From the NCBI GenBank assembly GCA_011391695.1, contig JAABQB010000033.1:1-34177 (forward strand): 34,177 bases of DNA. The letters run 5' to 3'. Source of the stretch: Desulfobacteraceae bacterium. GTDB taxonomy: Bacteria > Desulfobacterota > Desulfobacteria > Desulfobacterales > RPRI01. Both the position numbers and the translations under genes were made by a program. Shown here piece by piece: positions 3,465 through 34,177 of this stretch. Each line of letters starts with the position of its first letter. Positions within the stretch are counted from its first letter, which is position 1. The notes below the pieces were generated by a model. It searched no databases, had not been told where the DNA came from, and worked only from the letters and a program-made list of their open reading frames with translations.

Positions 3465-5462
3465 ATGTGCGGACTGACCGGTTACTTTTCTAGCCGCCCT
3501 TTAAACGCACGGGAAACCTTAACTGCGATGGGTAAAGTCATTAACCACCGAGGTCCTGACGACTTCGGATATTGGCATGACTCTGAAGCTGGCATCGGCT
3601 TGGTTCATTGTCGCCTGTCGATAATTGATCTTTCTTCAGCCGGTCATCAACCAATGTTTTCGCCTTCCGGTCGTTTTGTAATTGTCTATAATGGTGAGAT
3701 ATATAATCATCTGGAAATCAGGAAAGAGCTGGAGAAATTAAGAAATGAACCTCATTGGCGAGGTCATGCTGATACCGAGTCTCTTTTGGCTGGATTTGAT
3801 GCATGGGGCATTGAAGCAACCCTGAAACGCTCTGTGGGCATGTTTGCCATGGCGGTTTGGGATAAAGCGGAGAAGACTCTTACGCTTGCGCGTGACCGCA
3901 TTGGAGAGAAACCGTTATATTATGGCTGGAATCGGGAATCTTTTCTATTTGCATCCGAGCTTAAAGCCATGCGAGCTTATCCGGGTTTTATTTCAAATAT
4001 TAACCGTAACGCCGTGGCTCTTCTCCTACGCCACAATTACATCCCTGCGCCATACTCAATATATACAGGTATTTATAAACTCTGGCCTGGAACCATGCTG
4101 ACACTGCGAAAGGGTGCACACAGTGTCTGTCCGTGGGATGTTGATGCTCCACCCTTTGAACATTTCAATGCCAATGGCGTTTCGATTTGCCAGTATTGGT
4201 CGTTGCGGGATGTGGCGGAACAAGGACAGGCGAATCCATTTACCGGCTCAGAAAGCGAAGCGATAAATGAACTCGAGTGTGTGCTGACCGAGGCAGTACA
4301 ATCGCAACAGATTTCTGATGTACCTTTAGGGGCGTTTCTTTCCGGCGGAGTTGACTCTTCATCTATTGTGGCATTGATGCAAGCACATTCTGCCCATCCT
4401 GTGAAGACTTTTACAATCGGTTTTCAGGAAGATAATTACAACGAGGCTGAATATGCCAAGGAGGTAGCGCATCATCTGGGGACTGAACATACGGAGTTAT
4501 ATGTGACGCCTGATGAGGCTATGGCGGTTATTCCTCGGTTGCCGACACTCTACGATGAGCCGTTTTCCGATTCATCACAGATACCAACTTTTCTTGTGTC
4601 TCAACTGGCTAAGCAGCATGTTACTGTTTCTTTGTCCGGAGATGCCGGGGACGAACTCTTTGGCGGTTATAATCGTTATTTATTGACAAATGCTATTTGG
4701 AAAAAAATCGGCTGGCTTTCCTGTGCGAAACGACAAACCTTAGCTCATGGAATTACAAAAATATCTCCTTCTCAATGGGATCAGCTTAATTCGCTGATTT
4801 TACCTGTTATTCCAATTGAAAAACGATCAACGAGGGTAGGGGACAAGGCCCACAAGCTGGCAGAAATTCTGGCAGCAGATACCCCGGAGGCAATTTATCG
4901 CAATTTGGTTTCTCACTGGAAATCACCTGCCGCAATCGTGCGTAACAGCCAGGAACCTTTGACTTCGCTGACAAACCGCATGAGCTTGACTAAAATACCA
5001 GAACTTGAACATCGCATGATGTTTCTGGATGCAATCAGCTACCTGCCTGATGACATTCTGACCAAAGTTGACCGGGCTGCGATGGGGGTGAGCCTGGAAA
5101 CACGCGTGCCGTTTTTGGATCATCGGGTAGTGGAGTTTGCCTGGCGATTGCCGCTCAACCTGAAGATTCGCAACGGCCAGGGCAAATGGCTTCTGCGACA
5201 GGTGCTGTACAAATATGTTCCCCGCGAAATGATCGAGCGCCCAAAAATGGGCTTTGGTGTGCCAATCGATTCCTGGCTGCGCGGTCCGCTACGTGAGTGG
5301 GCCGAAGAGTTGCTGAACGAAAATCGGTTGAAGCAGGAAGGATTTTTTGATCCGGAACCAATACGTTTGAAATGGGAAGAGCACTTGTCAGGTCAACGCA
5401 ATTGGCAGTATTATCTATGGGACATATTGATTTTCCAGGCATGGCTGGAGAGCACAGGGTGA
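3465..5462 (+). CDS. asnB: Asparagine synthase-like glutamine amidotransferase
   Basis: A 665-residue protein. Residue 2 is the N-terminal Cys nucleophile of class II glutamine amidotransferases (MCGLTGYF). It is followed by YNGEIYNHLEIR, ADTESLLAGF and LARDRIGEKPLYYG, the glutaminase landmarks. The synthetase half has the PP-loop LSGGVDSSS (about residue 291) and SGDAGDELFGGYNRY. Known enzymes convert Asp and Gln to Asn and Glu. Longer relatives inside polysaccharide loci are thought to amidate uronic acids or other carboxyl groups, which this context favours without proving. GTGAAGGAAATGTC places a ribosome site just before the ATG. The stop overlaps the GTG start of the next gene. Confidence 0.9.
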   Translation: MCGLTGYFSSRPLNARETLTAMGKVINHRGPDDFGYWHDSEAGIGLVHCRLSIIDLSSAGHQPMFSPSGRFVIVYNGEIYNHLEIRKELEKLRNEPHWRGHADTESLLAGFDAWGIEATLKRSVGMFAMAVWDKAEKTLTLARDRIGEKPLYYGWNRESFLFASELKAMRAYPGFISNINRNAVALLLRHNYIPAPYSIYTGIYKLWPGTMLTLRKGAHSVCPWDVDAPPFEHFNANGVSICQYWSLRDVAEQGQANPFTGSESEAINELECVLTEAVQSQQISDVPLGAFLSGGVDSSSIVALMQAHSAHPVKTFTIGFQEDNYNEAEYAKEVAHHLGTEHTELYVTPDEAMAVIPRLPTLYDEPFSDSSQIPTFLVSQLAKQHVTVSLSGDAGDELFGGYNRYLLTNAIWKKIGWLSCAKRQTLAHGITKISPSQWDQLNSLILPVIPIEKRSTRVGDKAHKLAEILAADTPEAIYRNLVSHWKSPAAIVRNSQEPLTSLTNRMSLTKIPELEHRMMFLDAISYLPDDILTKVDRAAMGVSLETRVPFLDHRVVEFAWRLPLNLKIRNGQGKWLLRQVLYKYVPREMIERPKMGFGVPIDSWLRGPLREWAEELLNENRLKQEGFFDPEPIRLKWEEHLSGQRNWQYYLWDILIFQAWLESTG

Positions 5463-6589
5463 AACGTCCCAAACTTTTATATGTAGTTACAGAGGACTGG
5501 TATTTCTGCTCTCACCGCATGCCAATTGCCATTGAGGCGCAAAAACAGGGATACGAAGTTGTGGTTGCCACCAGGGTTGACCGTCATGGCAAATATATCA
5601 CAGATGAGGGATTCAAGCTCATTCCTTTGAAGATGCAGCGCCGCAGCACAAACCCTTTTAACGAAATCGCCGTAATTATTCAATTGATTGGTATCTATCG
5701 AAGTGAAAAACCGGATGTTGTTCATCACGTTGCAATGAAGCCGGTCTTGTATGGTTCACTGGCCGCTCGTCTTTCACTAGTCCCAGGTGTGGTAAATGCG
5801 CTCGCGGGATTAGGTTATGTTTTTACTTCTGATAAGATAACGGCTCGTTTCTTACGTTTCATAATCGGTAGCGCATTCAGAGTACTTCTTAACATCCGCA
5901 ATTCACGCCTAATACTCCAAAATCAGGATGATCGAGCGATATTTATCCTTAAGCGTTTCATAAATAAGGATCGAATCAAGCTAATCAGGGGATCAGGGGT
6001 TGATACCGCTATTTTTTCACATAAACCTGAGCCGTCAGGCATTCCTGTCGTTATGCTTGCGTCACGAATGTTATGGGATAAAGGGATTAAGGAATTCGTG
6101 GAAGCTGCAAGACAACTCAAAGCTCATGGAGTGAGAGCCCGTTTTGTACTGGTGGGTGATACGGATACACATAATCCATCATCAATTCAAAAAGAACAGC
6201 TGACTTCCTGGCATACGGAAGGAGTGATTGAGTGGTGGGGACAGTGTGACAACATGCCGGCGGTTCTGGCACAATCACACTGTGTTTGCCTTCCTTCATA
6301 CCGTGAAGGACTGCCTAAGGTGCTGCTTGAAGCCGCATCAACAGGACGTCCCATTGTTACTACCAATACTCCAGGTTGTCGTGAAATAGTCCGAAACGGA
6401 GAAAACGGTTTACTTGTTTCTGTACGTAGCGCAGAAAAAGTGGCTGACGCAATTCAAAGACTTATCGAAAATCCGGAATTACGTCAAAAAATGGGAGCGC
6501 GGGGACGGGAAATCGTTGTCAGCGAGTTTGCTATTGAAAAGGTTATTTCAGAAACGATGACTGTTTACAAAGAACTCCGACAAACATAA
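5459..6589 (+). CDS. GT4-family glycosyltransferase, PglA-like type
   Basis: A GT4 enzyme of 376 residues if translation starts at the GTG overlapping the asnB stop (GTGA). The frame is open back to an ATG at 5372, but that would overlap asnB by 91 bases. An ATG at 5441 is a second alternative. The sequence just inside the GTG (KRPKLLYVVTEDWYFCSHR) is the natural first strand of the N-terminal domain. A GGAG lies at 5447-5450. The donor domain contains PSYREGLPKVLLEAASTGRP (EX7E-type) and NTPGCREIVRNGENGLLV. This resembles PglA-like enzymes that add the second sugar after a phosphoglycosyl transferase such as the one encoded next. The substrate is unknown. Confidence 0.85.
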   Translation: MKRPKLLYVVTEDWYFCSHRMPIAIEAQKQGYEVVVATRVDRHGKYITDEGFKLIPLKMQRRSTNPFNEIAVIIQLIGIYRSEKPDVVHHVAMKPVLYGSLAARLSLVPGVVNALAGLGYVFTSDKITARFLRFIIGSAFRVLLNIRNSRLILQNQDDRAIFILKRFINKDRIKLIRGSGVDTAIFSHKPEPSGIPVVMLASRMLWDKGIKEFVEAARQLKAHGVRARFVLVGDTDTHNPSSIQKEQLTSWHTEGVIEWWGQCDNMPAVLAQSHCVCLPSYREGLPKVLLEAASTGRPIVTTNTPGCREIVRNGENGLLVSVRSAEKVADAIQRLIENPELRQKMGARGREIVVSEFAIEKVISETMTVYKELRQT

Positions 6590-25605: not shown

Positions 25606-27678
25606 ATGAGTGAAAGGTTAAATAAATTAAGAAATATTGCTCTTGTTGGTCACGGTAGTTCCGGGAAAACGTCTCTGTCTGAAATAATGCTGTTTAAAAC
25701 CGGTGCGATAAAGCGTCTTGGGCGAGTTGAAGATGGAAATACTGCCATGGATTTTGAACCGGAAGAATTAAAGCGGTTAATAAGCATCAGCAGCGGGTTT
25801 TACCAGCTTAACTGGAAAAAGCATGTTATTTCCCTTATTGATACGCCTGGGGATCAGAATTTTTTTACCGATACGATAAACTGTATGCAGGCCGCCGATG
25901 GGGCTATAGTTGTAATTGATGCCGTTGACGGCATAAAAGTTCAAACCGAAATGGCATGGGACTATGCAAAAGAATTCGGCCTTCCATGCGCCATATTCAT
26001 TAATAAGTTGGACAGGGAACGATCGGATTTTGCTCGTACATTACAAGATGCGGTAAATATTTTTGATCCCAAACCAATTAAAATTCAACTGCCGATAGGA
26101 TCTGAAAACAATTTCAGGGGGGTCGTGGATCTTATTACCATGAAGGCGCATATTTACGGTCCTGACGGTAAAGTCACAATAGGCGATATCCCGGAAGATA
26201 TGATTGAACTGGCTAACAGTGAAAGAGAAGCTCTTATAGAAAATGTTGCTGAAGCAGATGATAATCTTATCGAAAGATATCTTGAGGGAGAAACGCTTTC
26301 CGATGATGAAATAAAATCGGCTTTAAGAAAAGGCACGATATCCAGAGCATTCATCCCCGTTATTTGTGGTTCGGCAATTAAAGATATAAGTATCGATCTT
26401 TTATTGGACCTGATCATAAATTGCATGCCTGCTCCGAACGAAAGAACGCTCAAAAAAGGTGTCAACCCGAATAACGGCGAAACAATCGAGCGGACCCCCG
26501 ATCCTGATGCTCCGTTTTCCGCCCTTGTGTTCAAAACAGTTGCCGATCCATACGCCGGGCGCCTCTCAATAATGAAAATTGTTTCCGGCTCACTCGGAGA
26601 AAGCGGTAATTTTTACAATACAAACAAAGAATCAAAAGAGCGTTATAACCAGCTTCTCATGTTAGCCGGCAAGGAACAAAAACCGATTACCGAAGCAGGC
26701 GCTGGAGAAATTGTCGCTGTTGCCAAACTTAAGGAAACCACGACCGGAGATACATTGTGTGATGAAAACAATAAAATTAAATTCGAAAGCATAAAACCGC
26801 TGCCCACACTCATATCTTTTGCGGTAGGATCAAAAGTTAAAGGTGAGGAAGATAAAATATTCCTCTCCCTTTCAAAGCTGCTGGAAGAAGACAGCGCTTT
26901 GAAAATCGAAAGAAACGCTGAGACCAAGGAAATACTCCTCTCAGGAAGAGGCCAGGTTCATATAGAGGTTGTGGTTGAGAAGGTAAAAAGAAAATTCAAT
27001 GTCGATGCCCAGCTTAACACTCCCAAGGTCCCATACAGGGAGACAATTAAGAAAAAAGTCAGGGTTCAGGGAAGGCATAAAAAGCAGTCCGGCGGACATG
27101 GTCAGTTTGGTGATTGCTGGATCCAGATGGAGCCTTTGCCGAAGGGAAGCGGGTTTGAATTTGTCGATGCTATTGTCGGTGGATCTATTCCGCGGCAATA
27201 TATTCCGGCTGTTGAAAAAGGCATTATTGAATCAAGCCAGAAAGGTGTTCTTGCCGGATTTACGTGTGTCGATTTCAGAGTGACTCTTGATGACGGCTCT
27301 TTTCATGCTGTTGATTCATCTGAAATGGCTTTTAAGGTTGCCGGATCAATTGCCTTTAAAAAAGCCGTTCAGGAAGCAAAACCTGTGCTTCTTGAGCCGA
27401 TAATGAAAGTCTCAATTACTACCCCTGATGAATACATGGGCGATATAATGGGAAACCTGAACAGCAGGCGTGGCAGAGTTCTTGGAATGGACACCGCCGG
27501 TAAAAATCAGGTAATTCTGGCAAATGTTCCGATGTCTGAATTTCTGACATATGAACCGGATTTAAGATCAATGACAGGTGGCCGGGGAATTTACACCATG
27601 GAATTTTCGCATTATGATGAAGTGCCCGCCCAACTCGCAGAAAAGATTATCGAAGAGGCTAATAAAGACAAAGAATAA
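25606..27678 (+). CDS. EF-G-like translational GTPase (EF-G2 type)
   Basis: A 690-residue GTPase with the EF-G domain order. The G domain has GHGSSGKTS (G1), ISISS, DTPGDQNF (G3) and NKLDRERSDF (G4). Domains III-V include QSGGHGQFGDCWIQMEPLP, FRVTLDDGSFHAVDSSEMAFK and LEPIMKVSITTPDEYMGDIMGNLNSRRGRVLGMD. The segment GAIKRLGRVEDGNTAMDFEPEELKRLISISS is the hallmark of the second EF-G group rather than the canonical translocase. Its role in ribosome function is uncertain. GAGAGGAGC before the ATG is a strong ribosome site. The canonical fusA is not in the window. Confidence 0.88.
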   Translation: MSERLNKLRNIALVGHGSSGKTSLSEIMLFKTGAIKRLGRVEDGNTAMDFEPEELKRLISISSGFYQLNWKKHVISLIDTPGDQNFFTDTINCMQAADGAIVVIDAVDGIKVQTEMAWDYAKEFGLPCAIFINKLDRERSDFARTLQDAVNIFDPKPIKIQLPIGSENNFRGVVDLITMKAHIYGPDGKVTIGDIPEDMIELANSEREALIENVAEADDNLIERYLEGETLSDDEIKSALRKGTISRAFIPVICGSAIKDISIDLLLDLIINCMPAPNERTLKKGVNPNNGETIERTPDPDAPFSALVFKTVADPYAGRLSIMKIVSGSLGESGNFYNTNKESKERYNQLLMLAGKEQKPITEAGAGEIVAVAKLKETTTGDTLCDENNKIKFESIKPLPTLISFAVGSKVKGEEDKIFLSLSKLLEEDSALKIERNAETKEILLSGRGQVHIEVVVEKVKRKFNVDAQLNTPKVPYRETIKKKVRVQGRHKKQSGGHGQFGDCWIQMEPLPKGSGFEFVDAIVGGSIPRQYIPAVEKGIIESSQKGVLAGFTCVDFRVTLDDGSFHAVDSSEMAFKVAGSIAFKKAVQEAKPVLLEPIMKVSITTPDEYMGDIMGNLNSRRGRVLGMDTAGKNQVILANVPMSEFLTYEPDLRSMTGGRGIYTMEFSHYDEVPAQLAEKIIEEANKDKE

Positions 27679-27693
27679 CAGACGCCGTCAGAC

Positions 27694-30399
27694 TTATACC
27701 GGAATTATAAAAGAGAAAGTGGACCCTTTCCCGGGTTCACTTTCCACCCAGATTTTACCGTTATGATAATCAACAATTCGCTTCGTTATGGTCAATCCTA
27801 AACCTGTTCCTCGCGGGCGTCCCAATTTCGTATCAATCACCTGCTTGAATTTTTCAAATATCATATCCTGATTTTCGCGGCTGATCCCTATGCCGTTATC
27901 CGAAACATCAATCCTGAGGTGTTTATTTTCACGGCTTAGTTTTATATTAATATTCCCATCTTTATTGTCGCAAAATTTTACAGCGTTTGAAACAAGATTA
28001 AACATTACCTGTATGAGCCTGTCCCTGTCGCCTGATACAAGAGGCACAGAAGCCGGTAAATCCAGATTTACTCGTATATTTTTTTCATAAATAAGCTGGC
28101 TTGTGGCATTAACGGCTTCATTGACTATATCTTTCAAATCAATACGGGAAATCTGCCATTCCATCCTGCCCGATTCCATTTTCTGATAATCCAGAATCTG
28201 GCTGATAAGACGGGTTAACCTTTTACTTTCATTGATTATTATCCCGGTAAAATTGCTGTGCTGTTCAGGGCTTATATCCGGAGTCTCATGAAGTATTTCA
28301 GCAAGAGATCTGACCGAAGTAAGAGGCGTTCTTAATTCATGCGTAACAGTTGAAATAAATTCATCCTTAAGCTGGTCAAGCTCCTTGAGTCTTTCATTTG
28401 CAGCCTTTAAATCTGAGGTTGCTTTCTCAAGCTCCCTTGAATAAGCGATGACCTGTCTCGTTTCATCCAGAATATCCATCACTTCATCGATGCCGATAGG
28501 TTCTTCCTTGACTACGGAATCGACCATGACGCGCGCTGAAGCCGATCCTATGGCTCCGGCAAGCAGTCTTTCGACATAACTCACAAGTCCGGCATCCGCC
28601 GTTAAAGCGGCTTTCCAGTCGATGTTGCGTTTTTCTGCATATGAGGAAAGAGCTTCGTCGGCCCTGTGCTGCCCGAGAAACCTGCTCAAAAGAGACCGCA
28701 GGTCGGGAACCGATGCTGTCCTCCTCCATATCGGAGATTCATCCGTTTCGCCTGAATGTCTGAATACATCCACGAAAAGGGCGGCCTGGCTGTGTTCAAT
28801 GGCAGTCGGGCGGCTGTACAAAGATACTCCCGTGTAAGCGCCTATATTGGCAAGCATGCTCCAGAACAACGAATGAGCTATGTGATCGAAATTCTGCAGC
28901 CCGAAAAGCTGGAAGGGTTTTAAAAACTCTATTCCGAAAGGACCCTCTGTTACAAAACTCTGGGGAAGAAAACCGGCCTGAACAAGGGACGGAAAAACAA
29001 GCGTGTATGCCCATACCAGAATACCCGCAAGCAATCCGCATAAAGCCCCTGCCCTTGTCCCTCTCTTCCAGAAAATACCTCCGAGGATGGAAGGCGCAAA
29101 TTGCGCGACTGCGGCGAACGATACAAGACCTATCGATACCAGGGCATAAAATTCACCGATGAACCGGAAGTACATATAGCTGAAAAGCAGTACCAGGACT
29201 ATGCTCCCCCTGCGTATTGAAAGCAGAATGGTGCTTAAATCGGCTTGTTTTGATATCTGGAAAAACTGCACCCGTATGAGAACCGGCATGACAAGATCAT
29301 TGCATATCATGGTTGAGAGTGCGATTGTTTCAACAATTACCATTCCTGTGGCTGCGGACAGACCGCCGATAAAAACGAGAAGAGCCAGACCTTCCTTATG
29401 TTCGACCATGGGAAGGGTTAGAACAAAGGTATCGGCGTCCACTTTCCCGATTCCGAAATGAAGAACTCCTCCAAGCGCAATCGGCATAACAAAAATGTTT
29501 ATAGCAAGCAGATACAGAGGGAAAAGCCATATGGCCTTGCTTAAATGCTCTTCGTTTACATTTTCAACAACGGCCACCTGAAATTGTCGCGGAAGGAACA
29601 TTATAGCCATCATTGACAGGAATATATATATGCTCCAGTCGGCATATGCTCCGGAGCTTTCTCCCAATGTAAAAATATTTCTCAATTCGGGAACAGCTTC
29701 GGCTTTTCTGAAAACATCTCCGAAACCATCATATACACCGTAAGTAACAAATATGCCGACTGCAAGAAAGGCGATAAGTTTTACAATCGATTCGAATGCT
29801 ATTGCAGCCACAAGCCCTTCATGGCGTTCTGTTGCATCAAGATGACGGGTTCCAAATAAAATTGTAAATACAGCAAGCAGAAGCGCAACATAAAAAGCAG
29901 TATCGGCAAGCACCGGAATATCCGCAAAATGAACAGGTTCTGAAATCAGCGGGTATTGCCTGATAAGCAGATAGCTGGTTGAAATAGCCTTAAGCTGGAG
30001 AGAAATATAAGGTATGATTCCAAGAACCGCAATAATCGTTACGGCTCCCCCGAGTGTTGTGCTCTTCCCGTAACGTGAGGCAACCAAATCGGCTATGGAT
30101 GTTATCCGGTGAACCTTGCTTATCCTGATTATTTTTCTCAACACAAACCAGCCGAGAATTGCTATGAGAGTTGGACCTATGTAGATGGTGAGAAATCCGG
30201 GGCCGGTGTTGACGGCTCGTCCGACGCTTCCGTAAAATGTCCACGCCGTGCAGTAAACCGCAAGCGACAGCGCATATATATAAGGATTGCTTATAATGCT
30301 TCGCCCGATATCCGCCCTTTTGTCGCCATAGTACGCAATAGCAAAAAGGAGCCCGATATAGCCGAATGAGACCGAAAGAATAGTTCCTGTCTCAAGCAT
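27694..30399 (-). CDS. SLC5-family transporter fused to STAC domain and histidine kinase
   Basis: A 901-residue membrane sensor. The first ~510 residues form about 13 hydrophobic segments of a sodium/solute symporter (SLC5, PutP/CbrA-like; FTILFGTRHLDATERHEGLVAAIAFE). A STAC linker domain follows (about 550-620; ADEALSSYAEKRNIDWKAALTADAGLVSYVERLLAGAIGSASARVMV), then a coiled coil, a HisKA domain (THELRTPLTS, His687) and a HATPase domain (NLVSNAVKFC, DNGIGIS, GTGLGLTI). Such proteins probably sense transport or binding of a small solute and phosphorylate a response regulator. None is encoded here. A 74-residue membrane protein lies 9 bases upstream. Confidence 0.93.
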   Translation of the reverse strand: MLETGTILSVSFGYIGLLFAIAYYGDKRADIGRSIISNPYIYALSLAVYCTAWTFYGSVGRAVNTGPGFLTIYIGPTLIAILGWFVLRKIIRISKVHRITSIADLVASRYGKSTTLGGAVTIIAVLGIIPYISLQLKAISTSYLLIRQYPLISEPVHFADIPVLADTAFYVALLLAVFTILFGTRHLDATERHEGLVAAIAFESIVKLIAFLAVGIFVTYGVYDGFGDVFRKAEAVPELRNIFTLGESSGAYADWSIYIFLSMMAIMFLPRQFQVAVVENVNEEHLSKAIWLFPLYLLAINIFVMPIALGGVLHFGIGKVDADTFVLTLPMVEHKEGLALLVFIGGLSAATGMVIVETIALSTMICNDLVMPVLIRVQFFQISKQADLSTILLSIRRGSIVLVLLFSYMYFRFIGEFYALVSIGLVSFAAVAQFAPSILGGIFWKRGTRAGALCGLLAGILVWAYTLVFPSLVQAGFLPQSFVTEGPFGIEFLKPFQLFGLQNFDHIAHSLFWSMLANIGAYTGVSLYSRPTAIEHSQAALFVDVFRHSGETDESPIWRRTASVPDLRSLLSRFLGQHRADEALSSYAEKRNIDWKAALTADAGLVSYVERLLAGAIGSASARVMVDSVVKEEPIGIDEVMDILDETRQVIAYSRELEKATSDLKAANERLKELDQLKDEFISTVTHELRTPLTSVRSLAEILHETPDISPEQHSNFTGIIINESKRLTRLISQILDYQKMESGRMEWQISRIDLKDIVNEAVNATSQLIYEKNIRVNLDLPASVPLVSGDRDRLIQVMFNLVSNAVKFCDNKDGNINIKLSRENKHLRIDVSDNGIGISRENQDMIFEKFKQVIDTKLGRPRGTGLGLTITKRIVDYHNGKIWVESEPGKGSTFSFIIPV

Positions 30400-30636: not shown

Positions 30637-31296
30637 CTAATCTCCCTGGTCGTTTTCTTTCAGGCATTTTCTGCACGGGGCATAACCATCCCGGTAAGCA
30701 TCCCGTTTTCCCTTATAGATTCTTATGCCGTTCTTGTCAATTTTTCCTGCAAACGGACAACTTTTTAAATGAAATCGTTTTGATCTGCTGTTTCCTATAT
30801 ATTCTCCAGGATTATCATTTAGATGCTGCCATATGCCTTTATTTGACTGCATCGCCTTTTGCTGTGACTTTAAAAACAGTCTTTCATATTTCAGATTAGG
30901 TTTTTTGGGCAGACAATAGGCATATCCTGCTGTTATCATGGCATTATTAATAAAAGTGCCGTCTTCTAAAAAAACATACGCAAGCAATCGGCCATATTGG
31001 TCATATTTTTCATTGTCGAATTCGAGGCGAACTTTTTTCAGATAAACCAGTTCCCGGTTTAATGCTTTTGCTTCATCCCCGAAAGGTTCCGCTTTGGAAT
31101 AATCACTTTCAACTTCCGGCGAATCTATGCCTATGTATCTTACACGCCTTCCATCCTTCAAAACAATAGTATCCCCGTCATCCACCCATCTGACTTCAAA
31201 AAACCCGGAGCATTCGGCATAACTTCCCGCACATAATAGAAGGAAAAGAAAACCGGTAACAAGTATATTACAACAAATCCGATCTTTTAATCTCAT
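30637..31296 (-). CDS. Secreted thermonuclease (SNase) with C-terminal Cys/His motif
   Basis: A 219-residue protein from the ATG at 31296. Its N-terminus is a signal-peptide-like helix (ILVTGFLFLLLCAGSYAECSG). The SNase domain shows WVDDGDTIVLKDGRRVRYIGIDSPEVE and KYDQYGRLLAYVFLEDGTFIN with the usual Arg, Asp and Glu residues. A short C-terminal segment, RFHLKSCPFAGKI ... GYAPCRKC, has the Cys and His spacing of an Ada-type zinc-binding motif. The frame is open upstream to 31464, but the extra residues partly translate a dispersed repeat and lack a signal sequence. The chosen start has no clear ribosome site, so it is uncertain. Confidence 0.82.
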   Translation of the reverse strand: MRLKDRICCNILVTGFLFLLLCAGSYAECSGFFEVRWVDDGDTIVLKDGRRVRYIGIDSPEVESDYSKAEPFGDEAKALNRELVYLKKVRLEFDNEKYDQYGRLLAYVFLEDGTFINNAMITAGYAYCLPKKPNLKYERLFLKSQQKAMQSNKGIWQHLNDNPGEYIGNSRSKRFHLKSCPFAGKIDKNGIRIYKGKRDAYRDGYAPCRKCLKENDQGD

Positions 31297-31308
31297 AAGT
31301 TGGGAGAA

Positions 31309-31344
31309 AGGGGTCAAGGATTCCAGGATTCGAGGGTTCAAGTG
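31309..31344. repeat. Dispersed repeat copy upstream of the thermonuclease
   Basis: Contains GGGGTCAAGGATTCCAGG and ATTCGAGGGTTCAAGTG, the same family as 9887-9916 and 18816-18852. It ends 13 bases before the proposed start codon on the - strand and lies in the gap after the SPL-like gene. If translation began upstream it would be read as HLNPRILESLTPF. Confidence 0.7.
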
Positions 31345-31442
31345 TTTGTTTTCTATGGATGTTATGCAAAGTCTCATATCCAATGCGCCCGGTTTTTGAT
31401 TTCGTTTCTTATAGGATGCCGTTTGCGGCATAAAATTGCTTT

Positions 31443-32543
31443 TTACGAAGTCATCAGTCCGCAATGAAGAATAGCGCGGTTATCAAGCATTGTGGACAAC
31501 CCGCCTTTATCTTTTGGATTAAAACCGGCAGCTTTTTCCCACACCTCGTCATCTTCCATGCAGAAATAAACAACTACATCCGGCGCTATTTCTTTTATCC
31601 ATTCAACCATTTTTTTATAAATATCAATCCTCAATGGCTTGAAATATCTGATTTTACCATCAAGTCCCGTAATGAATTCACCGTATGGAATTTTTGAATC
31701 CGGAAACCGCTTCCGGATTATTGATTTAAGATCGGGCATAAAGCGGAATGTGCCTATACTTATCCATACTGTATTGTCGGGAGAAACATAAGAAAAGATG
31801 CTCCGGATAACTTTTTTATATTCTTCCTCGCACCCATCATACAGGATCACGGGATCAAAATGGAATGAAACAGGATATCCCCAGGACTCGCATACCGCTG
31901 CAGCCTTGAGCCTTGCGGTAAGTGAAGAGGTACGGCGTTCCTGCTCTTTTATTATCCTTTCCGTATTCAAAGACCAGGAGACTATCGTTTTTTTGTTATG
32001 GGATAGCCCTTTAAGAAGATCGATATCGGTTGTTTTTGTTTTAAGCTCAAGAACTGCTCTCGATTGCTTCGAGAACTCCGGTATCAGGATAGTTGAAAGA
32101 TCGGTCCATCTTTCCCATATCATGCTGTCTGTAAACTCCCCGGTTCCAACCCTGGAAACGGATTCCTTCTTAAAAAGCGTATCTAATTCCTTTATAAGAT
32201 CTTCATGGTTTACAAAGAACTGGAGAACAGGAGGATGAAAATATGACTGGAGAATGCAGTAGGAACAATCCATGCTGCAGAACGTCCCTATGTGCAGAAT
32301 CTTATAACCGCAGCAGGTGTAGTAACTTGTTCCAGGGCATTCCTTTATGAAAGAACCCCTGTTTTTTTTTATGTAAAGAGTCTCTTTCGCCTGTTGAACG
32401 GGATTCTCTGAACCGGATATGAATTCATAAACCGTATCCTGACTTGCAACCGTTTCATAGGGCATCTTGTTTCGCTGAAGCATCAATTTCGTAGCGGGAT
32501 AGTCAATCGCTTTTTCGTCTATGAAAAGTTTTGTAATCTTCAA
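31443..32543 (-). CDS. Spore photoproduct lyase-like radical SAM protein
   Basis: A 366-residue radical SAM protein. The cluster motif is CSMDCSYC (89-96, CX3CX2C) in HIGTFCSMDCSYCILQSYFHPP, as in SPL/SplB. RVGTGEFTDS (131-140) lies where B. subtilis SplB has its H-donor Cys141, and no Cys is present. GCEEEYKKVIRSIFSYVSPDN and the C-terminal YFCMEDDEVWEKA are family-like. It may act on another substrate or use another donor. True SPL repairs UV spore thymine dimers and would be odd in a non-spore former. It is followed by the thermonuclease on the same strand. Confidence 0.78.
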   Translation of the reverse strand: MKITKLFIDEKAIDYPATKLMLQRNKMPYETVASQDTVYEFISGSENPVQQAKETLYIKKNRGSFIKECPGTSYYTCCGYKILHIGTFCSMDCSYCILQSYFHPPVLQFFVNHEDLIKELDTLFKKESVSRVGTGEFTDSMIWERWTDLSTILIPEFSKQSRAVLELKTKTTDIDLLKGLSHNKKTIVSWSLNTERIIKEQERRTSSLTARLKAAAVCESWGYPVSFHFDPVILYDGCEEEYKKVIRSIFSYVSPDNTVWISIGTFRFMPDLKSIIRKRFPDSKIPYGEFITGLDGKIRYFKPLRIDIYKKMVEWIKEIAPDVVVYFCMEDDEVWEKAAGFNPKDKGGLSTMLDNRAILHCGLMTS

Positions 32544-32623: not shown

Positions 32624-34177
32624 TCACGGCATCCCTATAAATTCAAAGCCCAGTTTAGTCTGTATCTTTTCAATTTTCTTGAATATCTCTTTTAACATGG
32701 TCTGTTCAATTCTGGAAAGCTTTTTCGGATTAATGTAATTGTCGGGTTTTGATTTATCATCTACAACAGAGGCGACCTGTCGTACAAACCTGAGTTGCAT
32801 CATGAAGCTGTATGCCTGATCAATCTCATTGTAATCCTCCCAGGCCAGTACATTTTTTAAATATAACTGATAGAGCCTCTCCTGTGTGTTTGTTTCTTCA
32901 ATGCCATTTTTTAATGCATATATCCTTGCAAAATCGACTATCGGCGTCATGGCGCTTTTGATATCAAGCGAATCCCGGTGTTCGCCTTTTGATTCGACAA
33001 CAAAATTCCTGAAAAAGCCTATTGGAGGCTTGAAGTACAATGCGTTCTCGGAAAGATGCCGGAAAAAGCCTGCCCACCCACCCAATGATTTAAAAAGGTG
33101 ATTCCTTAACTGTCCGGTAAGATTTGAATCGCCGTAAGCGCATCTGAAATCAAAAAATATGCTTGATTTCAGGAGGTCTTCAGCCTCTGAAGTATGAATC
33201 CAGGATGAAAAATACTGTTTCCAGACAGATAACGGCTGGCACCATTTGGGGTTTTTAGCCATGATATCGCCCAGACAAAAATCGTAACCCGCCATGTCCA
33301 GCCACGTACAAACTTTCTCTCCGAAATTTAAAAAATATTCCCTGACTCCATCATTTTTATCTTCAGGAACATCATTAAAAATTATTGCATTATCCTGATC
33401 AGTTTTCAACGTCTGTTCTTTTCTCCCCTCGCTTCCCATTATCATGAATACAAACGGGGCGGGAGGCGGGCCGAGGTCATTAATTGCAAATCCGATAATT
33501 TTGTTCAAAATCGTATCCGAAACTGTTGTAATAAACCGGGTAACATTTTTCGCTTTTGCTCCGTTATTGATAAGAGTCTTTACCAGTTTCGGCATGCGCC
33601 TGTGTTTGTCTATAATTTCCTCGATACTGTTTGCAGTAATTATTTCCCGCACAACAAAAAAAGGAGATTGACCCTGCGCGGTCAAAAGATCTCTGTTTGT
33701 TACTATGCCTGTTACTTTTCCATCAGTATCGGTAACCGCTATGTGCTTTATATTCTGCTGCATCATCGCCATGAGAGCTTCAAATACAAGGGACTGCCCC
33801 GATATTTTACATAAAGGAGAAGACATTATGTCTGCGGCAGGAAGTTTTATGTCATAACCTTTTGCGATTACTTTTTTTCTGAGGTCATTATCTGTAACAA
33901 CGCCGACAAATTCGCCTGCATTATCTTTTACAAAGATTGAGCTGCAGCCCTGTCTGCTCATAATAGATGCAGCATCCTGAATTGACATATCTATCCCGCA
34001 ATAAACAAGCCTGCTGTTTGTAACTGCCGATACAGGCTGGTTAAGAAACTGCAGGGCTTCTTCCTTGGGCTGAATGTTCTTTGCTATTATCTCGGCATAT
34101 GACTTATCCAGCATCCTCTTGCCGAAAGTATCGGTGAAATAATCGGAAAAAGATTCATATCTGCTGCAGATATCCAG
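32624..34177 (-). CDS. CBS-pair / DUF294 nucleotidyltransferase-like protein (5' end cut)
   Basis: At least 517 residues; the frame is open through the window edge, so the N-terminus is missing. The first visible Met (34114) is probably internal, because 21 upstream codons (LDICSRYESFSDYFTDTFGK) read on naturally. That segment fits the end of a cyclic-nucleotide-binding-type domain, as in relatives. Two CBS domains follow (about 30-150 from that Met), then a DUF294 nucleotidyltransferase-like domain with GSEGRKEQTLKTDQDNAII (227-245) and a helical C-terminal domain. Family members resemble GlnD-type nucleotidyltransferases and often neighbour SLC5 permeases or kinases. The reaction is unknown. 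Confidence 0.87.
   Translation of the reverse strand: MDICSRYESFSDYFTDTFGKRMLDKSYAEIIAKNIQPKEEALQFLNQPVSAVTNSRLVYCGIDMSIQDAASIMSRQGCSSIFVKDNAGEFVGVVTDNDLRKKVIAKGYDIKLPAADIMSSPLCKISGQSLVFEALMAMMQQNIKHIAVTDTDGKVTGIVTNRDLLTAQGQSPFFVVREIITANSIEEIIDKHRRMPKLVKTLINNGAKAKNVTRFITTVSDTILNKIIGFAINDLGPPPAPFVFMIMGSEGRKEQTLKTDQDNAIIFNDVPEDKNDGVREYFLNFGEKVCTWLDMAGYDFCLGDIMAKNPKWCQPLSVWKQYFSSWIHTSEAEDLLKSSIFFDFRCAYGDSNLTGQLRNHLFKSLGGWAGFFRHLSENALYFKPPIGFFRNFVVESKGEHRDSLDIKSAMTPIVDFARIYALKNGIEETNTQERLYQLYLKNVLAWEDYNEIDQAYSFMMQLRFVRQVASVVDDKSKPDNYINPKKLSRIEQTMLKEIFKKIEKIQTKLGFEFIGMP

Follow-up and report, generated by a model that had tools for sequence, protein, structure and literature searches.

The DNA analysed here, called the window throughout, is a stretch of 34,177 nucleotides from a Desulfobacteraceae bacterium (GenBank assembly GCA_011391695.1, contig JAABQB010000033.1). 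An SPL-like open reading frame lies on its minus strand at positions 31443 to 32543; the preliminary description of the locus had named no strand. The frame begins with a TTG codon and encodes 366 residues. Downstream lies a gene for a SNase-domain nuclease (30637 to 31464, minus strand), recognized by PF00565, and upstream a gene for a CBS/DUF294 protein (32624 to 34114). Farther away in the window are a membrane histidine kinase (27694 to 30399) and EF-G (25606 to 27678). The histidine kinase has 901 residues, with a long membrane part before the kinase, and a similar protein is encoded near the SPL-like gene in another locus, L207.

The identification of the gene product as an SPL-like radical SAM enzyme is borne out. 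The protein scores 98.2 bits against the Pfam SPL model PF20903, for which the gathering cut-off is 27, and its gene is the single PF20903 gene in its own genome. With phmmer it matches the solved SPL of Geobacillus thermodenitrificans (Gt) at an E value of about 1e-12. Scores below the respective cut-offs were obtained with TIGR04070 for SplB (129.7 bits, cut-off 400), with TIGR03886 for the SPL family (42.5 bits, cut-off 437.55) and with the radical SAM model PF04055 (22 bits, cut-off 29.5). Membership in the radical SAM enzymes is supported by a CxxxCxxC motif at residues 89 to 96 and by the VIA-align match list, which is filled with radical SAM structures. Structure modelling, proposed earlier as a check, gave an SPL fold: the AlphaFold2 model (52-row alignment; pLDDT 83.8, pTM 0.86) matches SPL in Foldseek at an E value of 1.4e-20, and VIA-align superimposes it on SPL structure 4fhf with a Z score of 31.2 over 311 residues (model residues 1 to 329), the next family reaching Z 13.6. 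In the model, the GTGE motif discussed below follows a predicted strand at residues 130 to 133.

Open reading frame, HMM and AlphaFold2 evidence place the protein in what we call the GTGE family, with the signature CPGT..Y.CCGY - CxxxCxxC[I/V] - R.GTGE..DS - HFDP - CME. All members in an alignment of 20 diverse representatives match both TIGR04070 and TIGR03886, and other models account for three memberships only; we therefore found no NCBIfam model dedicated to the family. The GTGE family is an SPL-fold radical SAM family without a curated name of its own.

Among radical SAM enzymes, SPL is the textbook example of a radical relay through the protein. In SplB, according to the relevant passages of two reports, the thymine radical receives its hydrogen atom from Cys141, and the deoxyadenosyl radical is restored by Tyr99, which Tyr97 assists (PMC3742179; PMC5368176). 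phmmer sets RVGTGEFTDS of the window protein opposite RFEAACTSDI of the Gt enzyme, so that Glu136 stands at Cys140, the equivalent of Cys141 in Bacillus subtilis (Bs). MAFFT with the SplB of Bacillus velezensis puts Glu136 in the same column. The two alignments confirm the earlier placement of the segment GTGEFTDS (residues 133 to 140; 32124 to 32147, minus strand) in the region of SplB Cys141. The segment is conserved to a degree well outside what chance would give: in 81 proteins, the window protein and the best 80 of 133 genome relatives, G133, T134, G135, E136, T138, D139 and S140 are invariant (81/81), and the motif takes the form GTGE[F/Y]TDS. Among 89 rows drawn from the phylum, plasmids and phages, 72 combine G133 with Glu or Asp at 136, and two further rows read CTGE.

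The relay is altered at a further site. The cluster motif CSMDCSYC (residues 89 to 96; 32256 to 32279, minus strand) has invariant Cys residues (81/81), and its Tyr95, equivalent to Gt Tyr96 and Bs Tyr97, is likewise kept in 81/81. Ile97 (32253 to 32255, minus strand), in contrast, stands in the alignments at Tyr98 (Gt) or Tyr99 (Bs) of the relay. Next to the third cluster Cys, on its C-terminal side, 74/74 GTGE rows have Ile, Val, Phe or Ala, and rows of the other classes have Tyr throughout (24/24). Of the three relay residues, the GTGE family thus lacks Cys141 and Tyr99 together and retains Tyr97. Since both are absent, the published SplB radical relay cannot run in the window protein. Radical SAM enzymes carry their SAM-binding GGE motif at the end of the strand that corresponds to residues 130 to 133. 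Because Glu recurs here in several classes and directly follows the predicted strand, we infer that Glu136 binds SAM as the Glu of that motif ordinarily does and that Cys141 of SplB is the special state.

Set beside SplB of B. subtilis and G. thermodenitrificans (TIGR04070; PDB 4fhc-4fhg, 4k9r and 4rh0), the window protein has the same fold over residues 1 to 329 (Z 31), the CxxxCxxC motif, the Tyr97 equivalent, E202, R211 and R267. It differs in having Glu136 for Cys141 and Ile97 for Tyr99, an extra Cys-bearing loop, a tail beyond residue 329, where the VIA-align alignment with SPL stops, a host without the spore markers SASP and Spo0A, and a score under the NCBIfam cut-off.

The extra loop carries candidate replacements for the lost Cys. 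Cys69 (32337 to 32339, minus strand) is invariant (81/81 close proteins; 72/72 GTGE rows), and both aligners, phmmer and MAFFT, place it on Gt residue 76, a placement to be read with caution: there are 20 residues from Cys69 to the cluster but only 14 from SPL residue 76, the HMMER posteriors in the loop are modest, and the AlphaFold2 pLDDT is about 62 for residues 71 to 80. Gt residue 76 is Ser in wild-type SPL and Cys in the sequence of the solved C140A/S76C mutant, PDB 4rh0. The S76C substitution is reportedly an engineered substitute donor (Benjdia's 2014 "rewiring"). Cys77 and Cys78 of the same loop (32310 to 32315, minus strand), candidate hydrogen donors or extra Fe-S ligands, are both present in 81/81 close proteins, and in the GTGE rows C78 is found in 72/72 and C77 in 69/72. 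Outside the loop, Cys328 of the CME motif (31560 to 31562, minus strand), near the tail and just inside residue 329, is present in 81/81 close proteins and in 71/72 GTGE rows, the remaining row having a gap.

A natural enzyme offers a comparison. The SPL of Clostridium acetobutylicum, as presented in parts of PMC5368176, has a conserved Cys, C74, projected to the side of the pocket opposite the Tyr; when it repairs the dinucleotide form of the spore photoproduct, about 80% of the product is correct. It resembles the GTGE family in having a conserved Cys in its N-terminal region in place of Cys141; it differs in its known spore-photoproduct repair, and the comparison is one by description, in which C74 is probably the equivalent of Gt residue 76. 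Because Cys69 falls on the site engineered in 4rh0 and the C. acetobutylicum enzyme has its conserved C74, sequence comparison suggests that another Cys, Cys69 on residue 76, may fill the role of hydrogen donor. The preliminary description had named two observations that together would count against it, another Cys in the donor's role and repair of spore photoproduct; our results bear on the first half, through invariant loop Cys residues, one of them on Gt residue 76. A different use of these residues, in which Cys69, Cys77, Cys78 and Cys328 are ligands of an additional Fe-S cluster or of a metal and hydrogen donation involves no Cys, is compatible with either of the substrate readings weighed below. 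The set looks ligand-like, with C69 and C78 invariant, C328 missing from one GTGE row through a gap and C77 nearly constant. However, C77 is Ser in 3/72 rows and C328 is far off in the sequence, and we regard this use as rather unlikely.

Several classes can be told apart at the Cys141 site: GTGE, Cys, SYD, NLGE, NSGE, LGK and DxGEN. SplB belongs to the Cys class, as do its relatives from cyanobacteria, Acidobacteriota and Alphaproteobacteria. A Cys 10 to 24 residues before the cluster is present in all 83 rows without Cys141 from the GTGE, NLGE, LGK, NSGE and SYD classes, in 0/9 DxGEN rows and in none of the 6 Cys141 rows; the protein of locus L181, outside these script-counted rows, is by eye a Cys row without the upstream Cys. 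We considered a superfamily-wide rule under which every protein has a Cys at one of the two sites and rejected it: 83 and 6 rows fit, but the nine DxGEN rows have neither, and hence not every relative needs such a Cys. The proteins of TIGR03886 (cyanobacteria, Acidobacteriota, Alphaproteobacteria, Actinomycetota and Deinococcota) belong to the same superfamily as the window protein; they differ in that SCYTD rows keep the Cys and DxGEN rows are without both, and the window protein falls short of their model's cut-off.

The named close relatives of the window protein are Desulfobacterales-type bacteria, largely represented by metagenome-assembled genomes; Desulfonema magnum and Desulfosarcina widdelii are among the relatives. 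Such bacteria live in sediment or the subsurface, where there is little UV. The distribution described here covers Desulfobacterota genomes and a few plasmid and phage records. In a tree built by a quick method, unrooted and with long branches, the six Cys rows form one side of a branch with support 100; the duplicate L147, matches with E above 1e-10 and the two 10-base placeholders L146 and L160 had been left out beforehand. The phylogeny proposed in the preliminary description thus sets the Cys rows apart, and its lack of a root leaves the direction of change out of the picture. The window enzyme is a sister-family variant of SPL that lacks the relay and extends across the phylum, not a lone enzyme that lost its hydrogen donor; the missing Cys, first noticed as an oddity of one gene, is the signature of a widespread family. 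A relay-free sister family with an invariant Cys at an engineered donor site makes the evolution of the relay directly testable.

The genomic setting had been read as a probable non-spore former with a nuclease beside the gene. The former is supported: matches to Spo0A_C (PF08769) and SASP (PF00269) were not found in the bacterium's own genome, which is 98% complete, and the B. subtilis control was positive for the search. The nuclease is indeed adjacent, but the suggested link to it fails. In 80 close Desulfobacterales loci, the SPL-like gene is followed by SNase in 37 and by EF-G in 39, and PurC occurs in 29. Of 297 Desulfobacterota genomes, 180 have an SPL-like gene, and 131 of these also have SNase genes; among the 117 without one the figure is 94 (p 0.17). 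We therefore rejected SNase as a functional partner, judge the neighbour functionally unlinked, and take its adjacency, since there is no association over the 297 genomes, as local synteny of the kind seen with EF-G and PurC.

The more likely partners lie outside the window. In 34 of the 80 close loci, a gene for a ParB_N protein of about 300 to 330 residues lies no more than 5 kb upstream on the same strand. Of 40 distant loci, 26 (18 of 29 family codes) have a ParB-like gene at most 450 nt upstream in the same orientation, often separated from the SPL-like gene by only tens of bases or overlapping its frame, and the two thus often resemble an operon. Thirteen of the 40 distant loci, from nine family codes, also encode nearby a family-2 glycosyltransferase (GT2) with a common signature; in 11 of the 13 it stands at position -2.

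By per-genome tallies over the 297 Desulfobacterota genomes, and at a threshold of E <=1e-26, 153 of the 180 genomes that match PF20903 have the ParB-like protein, versus 5 of the 117 that do not; in genomes counted as lacking it the best match, at about 1e-16 to 1e-25, is presumably an ordinary ParB. When families are called by majority, 53 have both the SPL-like and the ParB-like protein, 33 neither, 9 the SPL-like protein alone and 1 the ParB-like protein alone. The GT2 is found in 162/180 genomes with the SPL-like gene versus 7/117 without (genome G030, with a GT2 match at 1.4e-64, was scored negative). All three genes are present in 146 genomes, none in 110 and a mixture in 41, which makes 256/297 all-or-none; these figures come from search alignments whose rows were chosen by adjacency, with cut-offs set after the values had been seen, and from genomes that share ancestry. 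The bacterium that carries the window has all three genes, unlinked: the SPL-like gene on C43, the ParB-like gene at C36:31303-32235 and the GT2 gene at C61:24676-25485. The ParB-like gene there (G000:C36:31303-32235; L214, about 5289 to 6269) directly follows purC, and relatives often have purC, the ParB-like gene and the SPL-like gene in a row.

Shared vertical ancestry, with no shared function, might account for this co-inheritance: families lacking all three genes may descend from few losses, and the genomes are not independent. We think this unlikely. The order ParB-like then radical SAM gene recurs across the 18 of 29 family codes, and the SNase control showed no association. Moreover, in f15, f21, f22, f29, f52, f79, f83 and f88, single genomes are without all three genes, and other genomes of the family carry the whole set or most of it. 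The ParB-like gene does not adjoin the SPL-like gene in f79 (L162, L210), and so the joint absence there was not one deletion of the ParB-like/SPL-like pair. The three-gene co-inheritance is the part that a specialist would not expect; the portions of the literature covered by our search contain no recognisable report of a ParB-like/SPL-like radical SAM pair or of co-inheritance of the three genes. The tight co-inheritance supplies this orphan radical SAM family with two named partners, a ParB-like protein and one GT2 subfamily.

As to the partners themselves, PF02195 (ParB_N, cut-off 26.3) recognizes three of five ParB-like proteins (44, 33 and 37 bits), a fourth scores 25.7 and the fifth has no match. 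The family profile matches ParB 4umk (2.8e-19) and Noc 7ng0 (4.3e-18) within residues 23 to 185. In Foldseek the AlphaFold2 model (pLDDT 93.1) has Noc, ParB and KorB as its top matches and also matches Spo0J; sulfiredoxin and a free serine kinase follow as weak matches lower in the list. Residues G58, R61, N95, R99, N102 and E105, invariant in 32 rows, are predicted to serve in CTP binding and hydrolysis. Judged by its sequence and predicted structure, the partner keeps two ParB domains in succession, the one that binds the nucleotide and, after it, the one that binds DNA. It resembles the ParB, Noc and KorB CTPases in this succession of domains and in the GxRR and N..R.LN..E motifs; it differs in having a C-terminal part of its own with a PPPxFE motif, in scoring under all NCBIfam ParB and Noc cut-offs, and in being paired with a radical SAM enzyme. 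The nearest named kin of the GT2 are polysaccharide enzymes, and it scores below all the NCBIfam cut-offs shown. In one locus (L205:3278-4816) the GT2 is a frame of 513 residues, longer at the N terminus by about 220; by eye this extension resembles a nucleosidase, and it has no Pfam match.

We tentatively favour a reading in which this unnamed SPL-fold enzyme acts on nucleic acid together with the ParB-like protein. Glu136 would bind SAM as an ordinary GGE-motif Glu, and the 5'-deoxyadenosyl radical would abstract a hydrogen atom from the substrate. A Cys in the upstream loop, Cys69 in the first place and Cys77 or Cys78 next, would then donate hydrogen to the substrate radical with no Tyr99 relay, and for this reason SAM would probably be consumed as a co-substrate and not recycled. 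The ParB-like protein would bring the enzyme to its nucleic-acid substrate. The SPL fold, the changes in the relay, the Cys69 site, the pairing and co-occurrence with the ParB-like gene and the ParB fold all speak for such a role; against it, a GT2 with polysaccharide-type kin fits DNA repair poorly, the co-inheritance is confounded by ancestry and the three genes are unlinked in the window's genome. The earlier suggestion that the enzyme acts on a different DNA lesion or substrate fares well in one part: another substrate is plausible, with Cys141 and Tyr99 gone and the spore markers absent. Its framing as a lone oddity beside a nuclease does not stand.

The GT2 can also be made the centre of the system, with the radical SAM enzyme serving glycan or envelope biosynthesis and the ParB-like protein acting as a regulator or as a small-molecule kinase-like enzyme instead of targeting DNA. 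We hold this to be only somewhat less likely than the nucleic-acid reading: GT2 co-occurrence is as tight as that of the ParB-like protein, its nearest named kin make polysaccharides, and the ParB and sulfiredoxin folds include free serine kinases (weak matches), yet the closest solved fold to the window protein is a DNA-lesion lyase and the partner retains the nucleotide-binding and DNA-binding domains of ParB. That the protein is a genuine repair enzyme for lesions such as the spore photoproduct or for other thymine dimers, an SPL that differs in detail and relies on a different Cys, seems improbable, given the lack of Spo0A and SASP in the genome, the low-UV habitats of its Desulfobacterales-type close relatives, the loss of Tyr99 in 74/74 GTGE rows and a TIGR04070 score of 129.7 bits against 400, even though the SPL fold and the position of Cys69 at Gt residue 76 are what such an enzyme might have. 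The same account can point to the C. acetobutylicum enzyme, for which parts of PMC5368176 describe spore-photoproduct repair with the conserved C74. An extension of our favoured nucleic-acid reading would join GT2, ParB-like protein and GTGE radical SAM enzyme into a three-part system marking or repairing nucleic acid in anaerobes. The clamp would load on DNA, the enzyme would open a base (for example at the thymine methyl) with the relocated Cys donor, and the GT2 would act on the product, in chromosomal base hypermodification or the repair of glycosylated lesions; in this full form the scheme is speculative and improbable. A role as an activase of glycyl or aminoacyl radicals was considered and dropped: PMC11528403 cites SPL, and nothing in the parts of it that concern us ties its activases to SPL.

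Related proteins on mobile elements and in other phyla add some minor observations. A scan of viral contigs with SplB gave one locus, and the same scan with the GTGE alignment gave no match; a phage collection held two gut records with SYD-class proteins. The SYD(T/A)D class at the Cys141 site comprises these human gut phage records (L117 and L118) and Fusobacterium vincentii (L114); its proteins have a Cys upstream of the cluster at a distance of 17 residues. Vent Epsilonproteobacteria are not known to form spores. An SPL homolog had already been noted among them in a paper on Nautilia (PMC2628731). On a plasmid of Roseomonas haemaphysalidis (L181:1-1626), two SPL-family genes form a tandem pair with an overlap of a few bases. 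DxGEN-class genes adjoin genes for cryptochrome/photolyase and dinB on a Streptomyces plasmid (L186:1-1632) and a Deinococcus plasmid (L182), which suggests that this class is linked to light or damage.
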